DNA of 64,000 nt from Verrucomicrobiaceae bacterium (GTDB lineage: Bacteria > Verrucomicrobiota > Verrucomicrobiia > Verrucomicrobiales > Verrucomicrobiaceae), in assembly GCA_027487315.1 (NCBI GenBank), contig JAIYDW010000076.1:1-64000 (forward strand), given 5' to 3'. Position numbers and translations under genes: made by a program. Shown here piece after piece: positions 10,528 to 27,501 of this stretch (position 1 is the first letter of the stretch; each line of letters starts with the position of its first letter). A model generated the notes under the pieces. The model searched no databases and was not told the DNA's origin. It saw nothing but the letters and a program-made list of their open reading frames with translations.

Positions 10528-10662
10528 TTAACTTTGAACTTTGAACTTTGAACTTTGAACGCTGAATGCGGATTGTGGAATGCGGAATGCGGAATGCGGA
10601 ATGCGGAATGCGGACGAGGACGAGGACGAGGACGAGGAGGAGGAGGAGGAGGAGGAGGAGGG
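10528..10662. repeat. Compound short tandem repeats: two heptamers, a hexamer and GAG triplets
   Basis: Four arrays lie end to end between the divergent flippase and GT25 genes: AACTTTG heptamers (10528-10560, over 4 copies), GAATGCG heptamers with two variant units (10563-10613), GACGAG hexamers (about 10612-10637) and GAG triplets (to about 10662). Heptanucleotide arrays of this sort are known from filamentous cyanobacteria as STRRs; here they occur at several loci. A 7-base unit changes the reading frame with each copy gained or lost. Confidence 0.9.
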
Positions 10663-10692
10663 TGGGGTTTAGGGGGTTGAGGAAGGGGGGGA

Positions 10693-11557: not shown

Positions 11558-11805
11558 GAAGGGGAGTGGTGAGGGGGCTGGCAGGAAGATGGGGGGCAGG
11601 AATAAGGGTTGGGAACCACGAATTTCACGGAGGGCACGAATGGAAGGGAGAGGGCCGCCTGAAGGCGGGTCTACAGGACGGATGAGGGGAGACGGAGAAG
11701 GAAGGGGTGATGAGAGGGGGCCCGTTCTTCGCTAAAGCTTCGAAGGGCTCGCTTCGCTCGGAGGGGGGAAGGCGAGGACGAGGAGGCGGCGGAGAGAGAG
11801 GAGGG
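11464..11805. other. Intergenic spacer between convergent genes, repeats only
   Basis: No coding region recognised. The spacer contains the second CGAATGA array, a GAATTTCACGGAGGGCACGAAT-like stretch at about 11618-11640, one copy of the GGCCGCCT hairpin repeat (11653-11681) and a palindromic CGCTTCGCTCGG segment around 11748-11760. Confidence 0.7.
11653..11681. repeat. GGCCGCCT hairpin repeat, copy 1
   Basis: A 29-base element with arms CCGCCT and AGGCGG followed by a CTACAG.ACGG tail. A second copy at 16122-16150 differs at three positions and supplies the stop codon of an acetyltransferase gene. Confidence 0.8.
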
Positions 11806-12720
11806 TTAGGGGAGCCGTTGCATCCAGAAGCTGCCGCCGGTGTCGGTTAGGATTTCGGGGAGAGAGAGTTGGAAGAGGTCGGGGAAGGTGGCGGCGGCGT
11901 GGGAGTTGAAGGCGCGGGTGATCCAACCGGGGTTACCGAGGAGGAAGGTGCGGAGGAAGAGGGATTCGTTCCAGGCGCGGCCTTCGAGAAACCAGTCGAT
12001 GGGATAGGAGGCGGGATAAAAGATGTCGTGGATGTGAACCCAGACGCCCGGGCGGAGGCGAGGGAGGATGCGGAGGAAGAGGAAGGCGACATCGCTGCCG
12101 GCTTTGGCGACGTGGGAGGAGTCGATGAAGAGGATGTCGTTGGGGGCCAACTGGTCGAAGAAGGCGGGATCGAGGGTTTGGACGGACTGGGGTAGGAGGG
12201 TGATGCGGGGGTGGTGAGACTGTGGGAGGAGGGAAAGGAGGCGCTGGGGGTGGGGCTCGATGCAGGTGATGGCGCAGGAGGCGTTTGTTTTTTCCAGGGT
12301 GTCGAGGGTGGCGGCGGTGGAGAAGCCGGAGCCGACTTCGATGATTTTTTGGGGTTGGAGGTGCTGGATGAGGCCGCTGAGGAGGAAGGCGTCGGCGAGG
12401 GGGAACCAGCCGTTGGGCTGATGGTAAAGCCAGTCTGGGTGGGGTTGGGAGGGGAAGGGGAGGCGTGGGGTTTGAGTGAGGAGGTTGTGGTAGAGGGTTT
12501 TTTGCTGGGCAGGTTGGAGGTCGATGTGTTCCCAGTTGGCGGCGGTGTCGTGGGGGAGGGTGGTGGTGCCGGGAGGGAGGTGATCCAGGTCGAGGAGTGG
12601 GGAGTGGAAATGGCCCGGAGGGAAGCGGCAGGCGCCGCGATGGGTGGGGTGGGAGGCTAGCCACCACCGGAGAAGGCGGGATTTGAGGGCCGTCCGGAGG
12701 GAGGCGAGGGGGGGAGGCAT
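11806..12720 (-). CDS. Class I SAM-dependent methyltransferase (Methyltransf_24-like)
   Basis: The 304-residue protein has KIIEVGSGFSTAATLDTL (SAM motif I), ITCIEPHPQRL, and ILFIDSSHVAKAGSDV in which the DSSH segment matches the metal- or substrate-binding region of the Methyltransf_24 group, followed by LRPGVWVHIHDIF. The N-terminal 100 residues are variable. It lies beside a second methyltransferase and two GT4 genes, so glycan or aglycone methylation is likely. The ATG at 12720 is immediately preceded by a hairpin- and heptamer-rich spacer (12734-12805 array), with no obvious promoter. Confidence 0.78.
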   Translation of the reverse strand: MPPPLASLRTALKSRLLRWWLASHPTHRGACRFPPGHFHSPLLDLDHLPPGTTTLPHDTAANWEHIDLQPAQQKTLYHNLLTQTPRLPFPSQPHPDWLYHQPNGWFPLADAFLLSGLIQHLQPQKIIEVGSGFSTAATLDTLEKTNASCAITCIEPHPQRLLSLLPQSHHPRITLLPQSVQTLDPAFFDQLAPNDILFIDSSHVAKAGSDVAFLFLRILPRLRPGVWVHIHDIFYPASYPIDWFLEGRAWNESLFLRTFLLGNPGWITRAFNSHAAATFPDLFQLSLPEILTDTGGSFWMQRLP

Positions 12721-12733
12721 TGAGGGGGGCGGA

Positions 12734-12805
12734 GGAGTGGGGAGTGGGGAGTGGGGAGTGGGGAGTGGGGAGTGGGGAGTGGGGAGTGGGGAGTGGGGAG
12801 TGGGG
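12734..12805. repeat. AGTGGGG heptamer array, about 10 copies
   Basis: Ten near-perfect AGTGGGG units immediately upstream of the methyltransferase gene that starts at 12720 on the minus strand. The same unit, mixed with AGTGGAG, recurs at 16061-16116. Confidence 0.92.
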
Positions 12806-12809
12806 GAAG

Positions 12810-12885
12810 TGGCGGCTTTGCCGCATTGGGGCGCCAGCGGGCTGGCTGGGGGAAAGCTGCAGCGGGCTGCAGCAGTCCAAGGGGG
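12810..12885 (+). repeat. REP element copy A
   Basis: Contains three consecutive palindromes: GGCGGC-TTT-GCCGC, GCCAGC..GCTGGC, and the core GCTGCAGC-GG-GCTGCAGC (12856-12873), then the shared tail AGTCCAAGGGGG. In this copy the core arms carry compensating changes relative to GCGGCAGC/GCTGCCGC of the other copies, so base pairing is kept. Confidence 0.85.
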
Positions 12886-16121: not shown

Positions 16122-16150
16122 GGCCGCCTAAAGGCGGGACTACAGAACGG
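16122..16150. repeat. GGCCGCCT hairpin repeat, copy 2
   Basis: Second copy of the element at 11653-11681. On the minus strand its CTGTAG supplies the last codons and the stop (16140-16142) of the acetyltransferase gene, so the native 3' end of that gene was probably altered by the repeat. Confidence 0.82.
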
Positions 16151-18059: not shown

Positions 18060-18370
18060 GGGAGCGGATTTTGGATTTCGGATTGGGGAGTGTGTGTGGG
18101 AGTGATCAGTGATTAGTGATCAGTAGTCAGTGTGTAGCGGATTGCGGGGAGCGGTTCTCTGTTCGATGGAAGTGGTTTGGGGGTTGTGGGCGGGGGTTTT
18201 GCTATTGAGCGGAAGGGGGTTGGTCCCGACAGCGGGCTGCCCGAACGGGAAAGCGGCAGCGGGCTGCCGCAGTCCAAGGGGGAGAGCTAACGTGGGGTGA
18301 GAGGGGGGGAAGTGTTTTTTGGGTTTGGGTGATGGTTTGGGGGTGGGATTTGCGTTAGTGGGTGCGTGAC
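18060..18370. other. Intergenic spacer with tandem GTGAT(C/T)A repeats and REP copy B
   Basis: No gene recognised. Short direct repeats of AGTGATCAGTGATTAGTGAT type lie at about 18102-18132, and REP copy B at 18201-18282 precedes the secreted-protein gene. Confidence 0.7.
18201..18282 (+). repeat. REP element copy B
   Basis: Starts GCTATTGAGCG, has GGGCTGCCCG..CGGG and the perfect core palindrome GCGGCAGC-GG-GCTGCCGC (18253-18270), and ends AGTCCAAGGGGG. Same orientation and layout as copies C and D next to the RAYT gene. Confidence 0.92.
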
Positions 18371-20303: not shown

Positions 20304-20385
20304 GCTATTGAGCGAAAGGTGTTTGCTCCCGGCAGCAGGCTGCCCTTGCGGGAAAGCGGCAGCGGGCTACCGCAGTCCAAGGGGG
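20304..20385 (+). repeat. REP element copy C, left flank of the RAYT gene
   Basis: GGCTATTGAGCGAAAGG..., GGCAGCAGGCTGCC, core GCGGCAGC-GG-GCTACCGC (20356-20373, one mismatch) and the tail AGTCCAAGGGGG ending at 20385. The next base starts the reverse-complement stop codon of the RAYT gene, so repeat and gene abut exactly. Confidence 0.92.
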
Positions 20386-20964
20386 TCAGTCGCCGTCTTG
20401 GGTGGCGATTTCGTCGAAGGGGAAACGGGCGATGGTTTTGACCCAGGCGGGTGAGGCGGTGGCTTTGAAAGCAGCTGCGCTGCACCAGGGCCACTGAGAG
20501 GCCTGGGGGACCAGTCCATGATGACGGGGGTTTTGATGCACGTAGTTCAGACGGGCAAGGTAGCTGTGCTGATAGGTGAGGTGCGTCTCCCGGTAGTTCT
20601 GCCAAAGTCGGGTTCGGTTGGGAACGTCGTCTTCGAGGTTCAGTTGCTTGGTGGCGAGGCTGTGGAGCTTTTGGAGGATCGGCTTCAGGGTGATGGCTCC
20701 CGACTTGGGACTGTGTGCGATGACGTGGTAGTGATTGGAGAGGACAGCCCAGGCTTCGAGTGGCCAGGAGCGTTCGGCAAAGACGTCGAAAAGGAGTTGC
20801 TGGAACCAGTCGCGTCGCTCCGGGGAATGAAGGAGGTGGGCTTCGTGACGGGTGCGGGCGGTGACGAAATAGACTCCGGCTTCTGAAAGGCGATGGGGCG
20901 GTGCGTGAGGCCAGGTCCGGGTCCCGATGAGAGCTTCCTGATCTGAAGGAAGATGGCTGTTCAT
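20386..20964 (-). CDS. REP-associated tyrosine transposase (RAYT, Y1 HUH family)
   Basis: The 192-residue protein belongs to the Y1/IS200-like HUH nucleases. It has the metal-binding pair in SNHYHVIAH (H78, H80 within residues 76-84) and the probable catalytic Tyr141 in YVHQNPRHHGLV (141-152), the motif that reads YIHxNPxRAGLV in typical RAYTs. RAYTs cut and paste single-stranded REP hairpins and are usually single-copy chromosomal genes. The gene is flanked by REP copies C (20304) and D (21050) in direct orientation, forming a compact REP-RAYT-REP unit. All residues needed for activity appear present. Confidence 0.9.
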   Translation of the reverse strand: MNSHLPSDQEALIGTRTWPHAPPHRLSEAGVYFVTARTRHEAHLLHSPERRDWFQQLLFDVFAERSWPLEAWAVLSNHYHVIAHSPKSGAITLKPILQKLHSLATKQLNLEDDVPNRTRLWQNYRETHLTYQHSYLARLNYVHQNPRHHGLVPQASQWPWCSAAAFKATASPAWVKTIARFPFDEIATQDGD

Positions 20965-21049
20965 GGGGGACGAGGTTAGGTCAATGAACGTGAACGTAAA
21001 GTGTGGAGTGCGGCAGCCGGCTGGCCGTGGTAGTCTTTGTGCGGAGTTT

Positions 21050-21129
21050 GCTGGTTGAGCGAAAGGAGTCCACCCCCGGCAGCAGGCTGCCCATGCGGGA
21101 AAGCGGCAGCGGGCTGCCGCAGTCCAAGG
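21050..21129 (+). repeat. REP element copy D, right flank of the RAYT gene
   Basis: GCTGGTTGAGCGAAAGG..., GGCAGCAGGCTGCC, perfect core GCGGCAGC-GG-GCTGCCGC (21103-21120), tail AGTCCAAGGA. It is the closest relative of copy C in the window (both share GGTTGAGCGAAAGG-like starts and the ..GGCAGCAGGCTGCCC segment). Confidence 0.92.
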
Positions 21130-23417: not shown

Positions 23418-24376
23418 GGAATTGCGGATTGCGGATTTGGGATTGCGGATTGGAAAGAGGGTGCTGGCGAGAGGGACTGGGCGTGGGGGAGCATGGGGCC
23501 GAGGTGCCAGTGTTTTTGGAGGGTGGTGAGGGTGTGGCGGACGAGGGCGATTTTGCGGGCGGAGGGGATGCGCATGGCGGGGAAGAAGGCCATGGCGGGG
23601 ACGTCGGTGGCGTCGAGGAAGTCGGTGGGGTGGAGGAGGAGGGAGGGGGCGGTGCCGGTGAGGCGGCAGAGGGTGATGGCGATGCGCCAGTAGAGGCGGG
23701 CGAGGGGTTCGGAGACGGTGGAGAGGAAGAGCAGGTAGCTGAGGTGGATGGGGGTGCGGAAGATGGGGGTGGTGGTGACGGGGACTTCGACAAGGCCGGG
23801 CTGGATCTCGTAGGGATGCAGGGAGGAGAGGCTGTCGGAGAGGGAGCCGTAGAGTTTGGAGCGTTTGGCTTTTTCCTCTGGGGGAAGCTTGGAGGTGAGG
23901 AAGAACCAAGCGCGGGCGAGGGGGCCGATGAGGGTGGGGAAGAGGGAGGCGTCGTAGGTGTAGCCGCGCTCGACGAGGAGGTCGCGGACAGCGGGGGAGG
24001 TGCTGAAGCCGGGGCCGCGGAAACCTCGGGGGCGCTGGCCGGTGGCGGTGAGGATGGCGGCTTCGGTTTGCTCGAAGTCGGCGCGGAGTTCGGCGTCGGA
24101 GTAGAGGTGGAGCCAGGGTTCGTGGAGAAAGGAGTGGTTGGCGATTTCGTGTCCGGCGTCGGCGATGCTGCGCAGGGCGGAGTGGTTTTTTTCGAGGGAG
24201 GCGTCTTTGCCGACGACGAAGAAGGTGATGGGGAGATTCAGCTCGGAGAGGAGGCTGAGGATGCGTGGGGTGACGAGGTCGAGGTAGGAGGGGAAGTCCT
24301 GCCAGCCGTCGATGCCCTGGGTCTTGAGGTAGGCCCATTGGTTATCGAGATCGAGGGAGACGCTGGCGGGGGACAT
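23414..24376 (-). CDS. Polysaccharide deacetylase (NodB homology domain)
   Basis: The 320-residue protein has SLDLDN at residues 7-12 with the catalytic base and metal Asp (D9, D11), the H-x4-H metal pair in GHEIANHSFLHE (H76, H81), and RGFRGPGFSTSPAVRDLL, a typical third NodB motif. It likely removes acetyl groups from an N-acetylated glycan. The C-terminal SAIPNPQSAIP is encoded by GATTGCG repeats, so the tail is repeat-derived. It has a 4-base ATGA overlap with the downstream GT2 gene. Confidence 0.88.
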   Translation of the reverse strand: MSPASVSLDLDNQWAYLKTQGIDGWQDFPSYLDLVTPRILSLLSELNLPITFFVVGKDASLEKNHSALRSIADAGHEIANHSFLHEPWLHLYSDAELRADFEQTEAAILTATGQRPRGFRGPGFSTSPAVRDLLVERGYTYDASLFPTLIGPLARAWFFLTSKLPPEEKAKRSKLYGSLSDSLSSLHPYEIQPGLVEVPVTTTPIFRTPIHLSYLLFLSTVSEPLARLYWRIAITLCRLTGTAPSLLLHPTDFLDATDVPAMAFFPAMRIPSARKIALVRHTLTTLQKHWHLGPMLPHAQSLSPAPSFQSAIPNPQSAIP

Positions 24377-24380
24377 TTTT

Positions 24381-24512
<132 letters not shown>

Positions 24513-24513
24513 T

Positions 24514-25671
24514 TTAGGCGGAGAGGCGGGCGGGTTCGGGTTGGGGGAGGAGGATTTGGGTGATGCGCTGGGCGGCGGTGCCGTCGCCAAAGACTTTGGT
24601 GACGCGGCGGGCGTGTTCGAACCAGTCGGTGTCGGCGATGGCTTCTTCGAGGAGGGGGGCGAGGTCGTCGGCGCGTTCGCCGACGAGACGTGCGACACCG
24701 GCTTGGACGCCTTCGGGGCGTTCGGTGTTTTCGCGGAGGACGAGGATGGGTTTGCCGAGTGAGGCGGCTTCTTCCTGGATGCCGCCGGAGTCGGAGACGA
24801 GGAGCCAGGCGTCCGACAGGAGGTGGACGAAGTCGGCGTAACCCATGGGGGCGGTGAGGATGACCTGGTCGCAGCCCATGAGTTCCTGGACGGCGGCTTC
24901 TTTGACGGCGGGGTTGGGATGGACGGGGAAGACGACGCAGAGGTCGGGGTGGGCCTGGGTGAAGGCGCGCAGGGTGCGCAGGTGGGTGCGCATGGTGTCG
25001 CCGAAGTTTTCGCGGCGATGGGTGGTGAGAAGGATCATTTTGCGACCACGGACCTGGTCGCGGAGAGAGTGGATTTCGGGTCCGGGTTGGGTGGTGGCGA
25101 GGGTTTGGAAGAGAGCGTCGACGACGGTGTTACCGGTGACGTGGATAGTTTGATCCGAGACTTTTTCGAGGATGAGGGTGCAGCGGTTGTGCTGGGTGGC
25201 TGCGAAGTGGAGGGAGGCGATTTGGGAGATGAGGCGGCGATTCATTTCCTCCGGGAAGGGGCTCAAGGGGTTGCCCGAGCGGAGGCCGGCTTCGACATGG
25301 CCGACGGGGATTTTGCGGTTGAAGGCGGCCATGGCGCCGGCGAGGGCGGTGGCGGTATCGCCCTGGACGATGACGTAGTCGGGTTTTTCCTGTTCGAGGA
25401 TGGGGTCGAGGCGCTCGATGATTTTGGCGCCGAGGGTGTTGAGGGATTGGCCGGGGGACATGGCGGCCAGATCGTGGTCGGGCTGGATGTTGAAGAGCTG
25501 GAAGAGGGGGGTGAGGAGGTCGGCGTGCTGGCCGGAGTTGACGACGATGGGGTGGCCGCCCTGGCGTCGGACCTCATGGATGAGGGGGGCCATTTTGATC
25601 ATTTCGGGCCGGGTTCCGAAGCAGAAGAGGACGCGAGAGGCGGTGGCAGTGGACGGAAATTGAATAACCAT
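24514..25671 (-). CDS. wecB: UDP-N-acetylglucosamine 2-epimerase (non-hydrolysing)
   Basis: From the ATG at 25671 the protein is 385 residues. It carries the family's landmarks in order: FCFGTRPEMIKMAPL near residue 20, VNSGQHADLL, VQGDTATAL, GHVEAGLRSG, LLTTHRREN and SDSGGIQEEAASLGKP. It interconverts UDP-GlcNAc and UDP-ManNAc, supplying N-acetylmannosamine for the glycan. Its stop abuts a GACGAG repeat tract. The AT-rich 200-base spacer upstream (25672-25873) probably carries its own promoter. Confidence 0.95.
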   Translation of the reverse strand: MVIQFPSTATASRVLFCFGTRPEMIKMAPLIHEVRRQGGHPIVVNSGQHADLLTPLFQLFNIQPDHDLAAMSPGQSLNTLGAKIIERLDPILEQEKPDYVIVQGDTATALAGAMAAFNRKIPVGHVEAGLRSGNPLSPFPEEMNRRLISQIASLHFAATQHNRCTLILEKVSDQTIHVTGNTVVDALFQTLATTQPGPEIHSLRDQVRGRKMILLTTHRRENFGDTMRTHLRTLRAFTQAHPDLCVVFPVHPNPAVKEAAVQELMGCDQVILTAPMGYADFVHLLSDAWLLVSDSGGIQEEAASLGKPILVLRENTERPEGVQAGVARLVGERADDLAPLLEEAIADTDWFEHARRVTKVFGDGTAAQRITQILLPQPEPARLSA

Positions 25672-27187: not shown

Positions 27188-27501
27188 GGAGGAACTGAAG
27201 GCTCAGTTCGGGGATTTGGCGAGGGGGAATTGTTGAATTGCGGGTTGCGGATTGAGTGATGATGACGAGAGGGTGGACGGGGCTACGGTTAAGGGGCGTT
27301 TGCTTTCGCTGGGCTTCGGTTCCCTTCGGTTCCCTTCGGTCGGTTCGCGGAGCGGTGACGTGCACTTTGGGGAGTGGCGGCGGGGCCGCGTTTTGGGCGC
27401 CAGCAGGCTGGCTGAGGGAAAGCGGCAGCGGGCTGCCGCAGTCCAAGGGGGTTTTAGCGAAGGGAGTCGTTCACCTGCGGAGGGCTGCAGCAGTCCAGGG
27501 A
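27188..27501. other. Intergenic spacer with REP copy E
   Basis: No gene recognised. It contains three TTCGGTTCCC decamers (27315-27345), the full REP copy E (27370-27451) and a partial tail copy (GGGCTGCAGCAGTCCAGGGA, 27482-27501) just before the sugar dehydrogenase stop. Confidence 0.75.
27370..27451 (+). repeat. REP element copy E
   Basis: Layout as copy A: GGCGGC-GGG-GCCGC, GCCAGC..GCTGGC, then the perfect core GCGGCAGC-GG-GCTGCCGC (27422-27439) and AGTCCAAGGGGG. Confidence 0.9.

Follow-up and report, generated by a model that had tools for sequence, protein, structure and literature searches.

A gene for a REP-associated tyrosine transposase (RAYT) lies at 20386–20964 on the minus strand of the window, by which we mean the whole 64-kb stretch of DNA that was analysed. 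The gene encodes a protein of 192 aa with an NHYH motif (H78, H80), the pair W121-Q122 and a tyrosine, Y141, within the motif YVHQNP. H78, H80 and Y141 were unchanged across 31 sequences. The protein scored 77.7 bits against the NCBIfam model NF047646 (REP_Tyr_transpos), just below the cutoff of 80. All 18 RAYTs of the aligned set matched this model (E ≤ 0.001), and only one of the 18 also matched the IS200 model. The only solved relative found by sequence was E. coli TnpA-REP, PDB 4ER8 (E 3e-5 with the single sequence, 2e-10 with a profile). The structure predicted for the window RAYT had a mean pLDDT of 83.6; a fold search with this model ranked 4ER8 first (E 2.6e-9) and IS200/IS605 transposases next. 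The HUH motif and the catalytic tyrosine were thus placed within a Y1 fold by both alignment and predicted structure, and the intact motifs reported in the earlier note are borne out by the NHYH motif and Tyr141.

A single close RAYT copy was found in the window's genome and no second one. For the pairs of RAYT genes where it could be computed, dN/dS was 0.02–0.18, so the genes have been kept functional under purifying selection. Low copy number per genome and purifying selection, two properties expected of RAYTs, were both found. Two RAYTs from different genera (L021 and L022; genomes G039 and G011) were almost identical in protein (dN 0.007, dS 0.28), which may reflect transfer or very strong constraint.

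Read on the strand of the RAYT gene, the REP sequence is TTGGACT-GCGGCAGC-NN-GCTGCCGC-TTTC. The window was searched for the core palindrome, GCGGCAGC-NN-GCTGCCGC, with up to three mismatches. This gave eight matches, compared with a mean of 0.78 and a maximum of 4 in shuffled sequences. Five are true copies, all in the same orientation: A (12856), B (18253), C (20356), D (21103) and E (27422). C and D were seen to frame the RAYT gene, and A, B and E, together with a partial copy, lie elsewhere in the 64 kb, as the earlier note had described. Within the window the palindromes are intergenic, and DNA folding gave stable hairpins. A second hairpin flanks each core, making the unit longer than the core.

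Copy C, 3′ of the RAYT gene (20329–20382, minus strand), comprises a core at 20356–20373 with one broken pair (C-A), the tag TGGACT on the minus strand at 20374–20379 and the second hairpin at 20329–20346. It had been placed one base before the RAYT stop codon. The copy is indeed near the stop, but the last base of its AGTCCAAGG tail is 20382, which leaves three bases between the tail and the codon (20386–20388); the tail abuts the codon only when a shared G run is counted. Copy D, 5′ of the gene (21004–21129), is a REPIN whose left end has decayed. A decayed inverted REP with a GGAG tag, TGGAGTGCGGCAGCCGGCTGGCCG, overlooked in the earlier note, occupies 21004–21027; it is followed by the inner hairpin at 21076–21093 and the right REP at 21103–21120, whose GGAC tag (on the minus strand) extends to 21129. 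The two-ended counterpart of copy D is intact in the sister genome G001 (locus L018).

Copy B (18228–18279, minus strand) corresponds to three tandem units at the same site in G001. Copies A and E are chimeric units. Copy A (12809–12882) consists of a GTGGCGGCTTTGCCGC REP at 12809–12824, a GCCAGC..GCTGGC hairpin and a GGAC-tagged REP at 12856–12873, in which the change G3→T is matched by C16→A, so that all eight pairs are kept; these are the paired arm changes reported previously. Copy E (27374–27448) has a GTGG REP at its left end and a GGAC REP at 27422–27439. Adjoining it is the partial copy, a decayed REP fragment at 27475–27499 (minus strand; CTGCGGAGGGCTGCAGCAGTCCAGG) that is better kept in genome G003. 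Tandem runs such as GAGGAC, GGGGAGT and ATTGCGG are present around genes in the window at 10560–10690, 12694–12816 and 24375–24514, and blur repeat junctions there.

The window's genome (G000) comprises 5.87 Mb in 256 contigs. With up to three mismatches the palindrome occurred 15 times in it, 10 of these outside the window, and the reversed control pattern did not occur; the search proposed in the earlier note thus returned the expected excess beyond the window. The window holds 5 of the 15 copies (binomial P 4e-7; leaving out C and D, 3 of 13, P 3e-4), which indicates clustering near the RAYT gene; the P values are flattering because the window was picked for its REP/RAYT feature. Dispersed palindromes and RAYT-flanking copies, as expected of a REP system, were therefore both present, with intergenic location assessed in the window.

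Of 13 loci in the genome G000, eight, including A and E, hold a chimera of about 70 bp that joins a GTGGCGGCTTTGCCGC (GTGG) REP to a GGAC REP, one at each end, with the two tags outermost. Most perfect GTGG palindromes in the genome lie within such chimeras. In relatives, long units of two inverted REPs adjoin the RAYT on one side or on both; the two REPs are about 158 bp apart in genomes G011 and G019, with a second hairpin beside each REP. The unit is accordingly a REPIN-like or chimeric dimer and not a single REP.

The GTAG tag is known from enterics and pseudomonads. Four-base feet of RAYT-adjacent hairpins were compared with shuffles in an unbiased scan of 68 loci from relatives and 80 GTDB loci, a few of the latter being from the same genomes as the first sample. 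GGAC and GGAG were far above shuffles in both sets, and no enrichment of GTAG or GTGG was found at these feet, which stayed at chance level in both. The repeat is therefore a variant REP and not a canonical GTAG REP. Among 353 copies the consensus on the RAYT strand was YNT-GGAS-T-[hairpin]-TTT, with a pyrimidine at position −3 in 98%, T at −1 in approximately 90% and TTT after the hairpin. The foot motif is conserved on both sides of very different stems. Pairing of GGA with TCC around a small internal loop is possible in DNA folds, so GGA may be part of the stem and not a free foot. A genome-wide count of GGAG-type copies with a loose pattern matched 90 of 96 genomes and was noisy, control matches being common, and is taken as a hint only.

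GGASTGC was found within 450 bases of the RAYT in 79 of the 80 GTDB loci, and copies flanked the RAYT in nearly every genome. The hosts were mainly Verrucomicrobiota (60 rows) and Planctomycetota (9), with a few labelled Lentisphaerota, Hydrogenedentes or others; some of the minor-phylum rows are perhaps mis-binned. The group of RAYTs with GGAC/GGAG-tagged REPs is thus large and belongs mostly to Verrucomicrobiota and Planctomycetota. Seven Planctomycetota records (L150, L152, L153, L155, L159, L160 and L169) carry RAYTs of the window's clade (59–62% identical), for which transfer between phyla and mis-binned contigs are both possible.

Across 96 genomes, at least five TGGACT-palindrome copies were present in all 14 that carry a close-clade RAYT and in 8 of the 82 in which no such RAYT was detected (Fisher P 1e-11, which overstates the association because the genomes are related). 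The earlier note had held that copies shared with RAYT-less genomes would speak against its reading. Such sharing is seen in part, in these eight genomes and, for copy E only, in G003; several of the eight REP-rich assemblies are incomplete or fragmented, and in G018 contigs break at the repeats. These eight genomes count against a RAYT-driven system, as do the low copy numbers, 15 here and 46 in the closed genome G005 (up to two mismatches), compared with the more than 100 typical of REPs.

Sister species differed in REP presence or copy number at orthologous sites. In G011 a REPIN of about 180 bp lies between two adjacent genes, ABC-transporter-like by eye, that are separated by 11 bp in the sister genome G018; about 30 extra bases on each side of the REPIN leave its exact ends unfixed. 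Two inverted REPs thus behave as one unit, as in a REPIN, present or absent as a whole at one orthologous site with approximate ends. Site B holds one unit in the window's genome and three in G001, and the site of copy E is occupied in G000 and G003, with only a GTGG palindrome found in G001. At the L015 site the unit is missing in G003, where the junction is blurred. The comparison of related genomes suggested in the earlier note therefore yielded both a copy-number difference and species-specific sites. No clean empty sites were found in the window's genus: differences were seen, but low-complexity DNA and other repeats blurred their junctions; for the RAYT itself no empty site was found in G002 or G003, whose assemblies yielded neither flanking gene.

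The REP-RAYT reading of the locus is supported by these data. The locus is very probably a REPtron, in which a single-copy HUH/Y1 RAYT with cognate repeats moves two-ended units. The host is a bacterium related to Prosthecobacter, whose RAYT probably spreads the hairpin repeats that frame it. Past mobility of the REPs is supported, and they may be mobile at the present day.

The RAYT may instead have been domesticated and serve the cell, the repeats being old, decaying leftovers that are now immobile. The strong purifying selection on the gene would fit this, as would the decayed left REP of copy D, the broken pair of copy C and the few copies in the window's genome. The compensatory change in copy A, the occurrence of A-type copies at several sites, the one versus three units at site B and the species-specific sites all point to activity in the not too distant past, and we regard domestication as rather unlikely, though worth keeping in mind; it would be compatible with REPtron identity.

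A classic IS200/IS605-like element or another IS bounded by terminal inverted repeats, with the flanking repeats as element ends and the dispersed copies as solo ends or MITEs, is improbable. It is true that in many genomes the gene has flanking units on each side, and that IS200 transposases share the fold. Such an element should occur as multiple near-identical full copies, however, and there is no second close RAYT copy in the window's genome; the RAYT model was matched by 18 of 18 proteins and the IS200 model by one of them, and many dispersed units are two-ended and not solo ends. It is very hard to believe that the palindromes are terminators of transcription, or hairpins with some other regulatory role, which spread by duplication and have a RAYT beside them by chance. 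Their intergenic position in the window and their stable hairpins would fit such a role. Against it stand the foot motif, conserved on either side of stems that differ greatly, the link between RAYT clade and REPs across genomes, and the RAYT-flanking copies in nearly every genome of the 80 GTDB loci.

For the REPtron, the most likely course of events would begin with binding of the RAYT to a single-stranded REP hairpin exposed in replication. The protein would read the foot motif TGGAS-T, and Tyr141 would nick beside the foot. Joining of ends by the RAYT would then allow two-ended units (REPINs and the 70-bp chimeras) to move and multiply.

The residues of E. coli TnpA-REP reported to contact GTAG are W94, Q95, E100, H101 and R104 (PMC6006769). 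More distant RAYTs (30–36% identical) from the same bacterial family as the window are flanked by inverted GTAGTCCCGGCTTTAGCCGG-type (GTAG) REPs. In an alignment with 4ER8 (E. coli numbering), R was found at both 101 and 104 in all eight GTAG-flanked RAYTs. Among 64 GGAS RAYTs, position 101 was T, S or K, and position 104 was T or S in 61 and D or E in three; the equivalents in the window RAYT are T127 and T130. The change of tag from GTAG to GGAS would reflect replacement of these tag-reading residues, a correlation and not proof, since it rests on one deep split and may be due to shared ancestry.

On an 81-row tree, tag position 4 changed from C to G or back at least 11 times, and L040 carries both types of tag on one REPIN. 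Two rules involving this position were rejected. The residue after W121 (Q or H) as its determinant fitted the first 14-member clade and broke down in the second sample, in which H, and likewise F, is found with both tags. An IS608-style guide rule (GGAG selecting CT, GGAC selecting GT) failed, tag position 4 not covarying with the three bases outside the tag. We tentatively propose, at somewhat less than an even chance, that a group of RAYTs, most of them from Verrucomicrobiota and Planctomycetota, recoded its REP recognition: replacement of basic H/R101 and R104 by Thr would have accompanied a change of foot from GTRG to GGAS, with position 4 free to toggle (11 changes on the 81-row tree), and such a relaxed RAYT may also move the GTGG/GGAC chimeric REPINs.

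The system resembles E. coli TnpA-REP/REP (group 2, PDB 4ER8) in its HUH/Y1 fold, in the single chromosomal gene between REP hairpins and in its inverted REP pairs. It differs in having GGAC/GGAG tags, T/T at the contact positions and low copy number, where the E. coli system has a GTAG tag and H101/R104. The E. coli protein does not tolerate any change in GTAG (PMC8266576). As in the REPINs of Pseudomonas (Bertels and Rainey 2011, PMC3116915), the mobile unit consists of two inverted REPs and is RAYT-linked, but here each half contains two hairpins, and in some units the two ends differ in tag (GTGG and GGAC). The repeats of Opitutus terrae (Di Nocera 2013, PMC3733652) are likewise REPs of Verrucomicrobiota and form dimers; their tags are GTAG/GTGG, and the text of that paper names no GGAC/GGAG tag. 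TnpA-Y1 subclass 2.6 and class 3, as described in Quentin 2018 (PMC6006769), also comprise RAYT-like genes beside 'atypical' structures without GT[AG]G. In that description subclass 2.6 is mainly from Bacteroidetes, whereas the present group is mainly from Verrucomicrobiota and Planctomycetota, and class 3 has the foot CnGA and Y....Q, compared with the foot GGAS and the Tyr motif YVHQN[P/A] here. The GGAC/GGAG foot was named in the text of no paper found, and priority is not certain. The earlier expectation that a verrucomicrobial version could be new in detail holds for the GGAC/GGAG tag in place of GTAG and for the REPIN-like or chimeric dimer unit.

It is an open question how a RAYT chooses its REPs, and so is the need for the GTAG foot. 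The existence of a natural group in which the foot differs and the likely specificity residues are indicated makes the recognition code directly testable, and GTAG-type RAYTs from the same family of bacteria provide a built-in control. The results also suggest that searches requiring GT[AG]G miss many REP families.

Two further repeats were observed. GTAGTCCCGCCTTCAGGCGG, at 11655–11674 and 16124–16143 (both minus strand), belongs to a second REP family of canonical GTAG type with 13 genomic copies; no GTAG-type RAYT for it was found in the window's assembly, so these REPs are apparently orphan. A separate dispersed repeat of approximately 78 bp (...CAATGAGGCCGCTGCGCCGCTGGGCAATGTGACAAGCATTTCGAGAGTCGGTCTA) occurs at tens of places in G000, G001 and G003, for example at L111:1167–1245 and L112:~518–616, and one copy adjoins the RAYT locus of G001.
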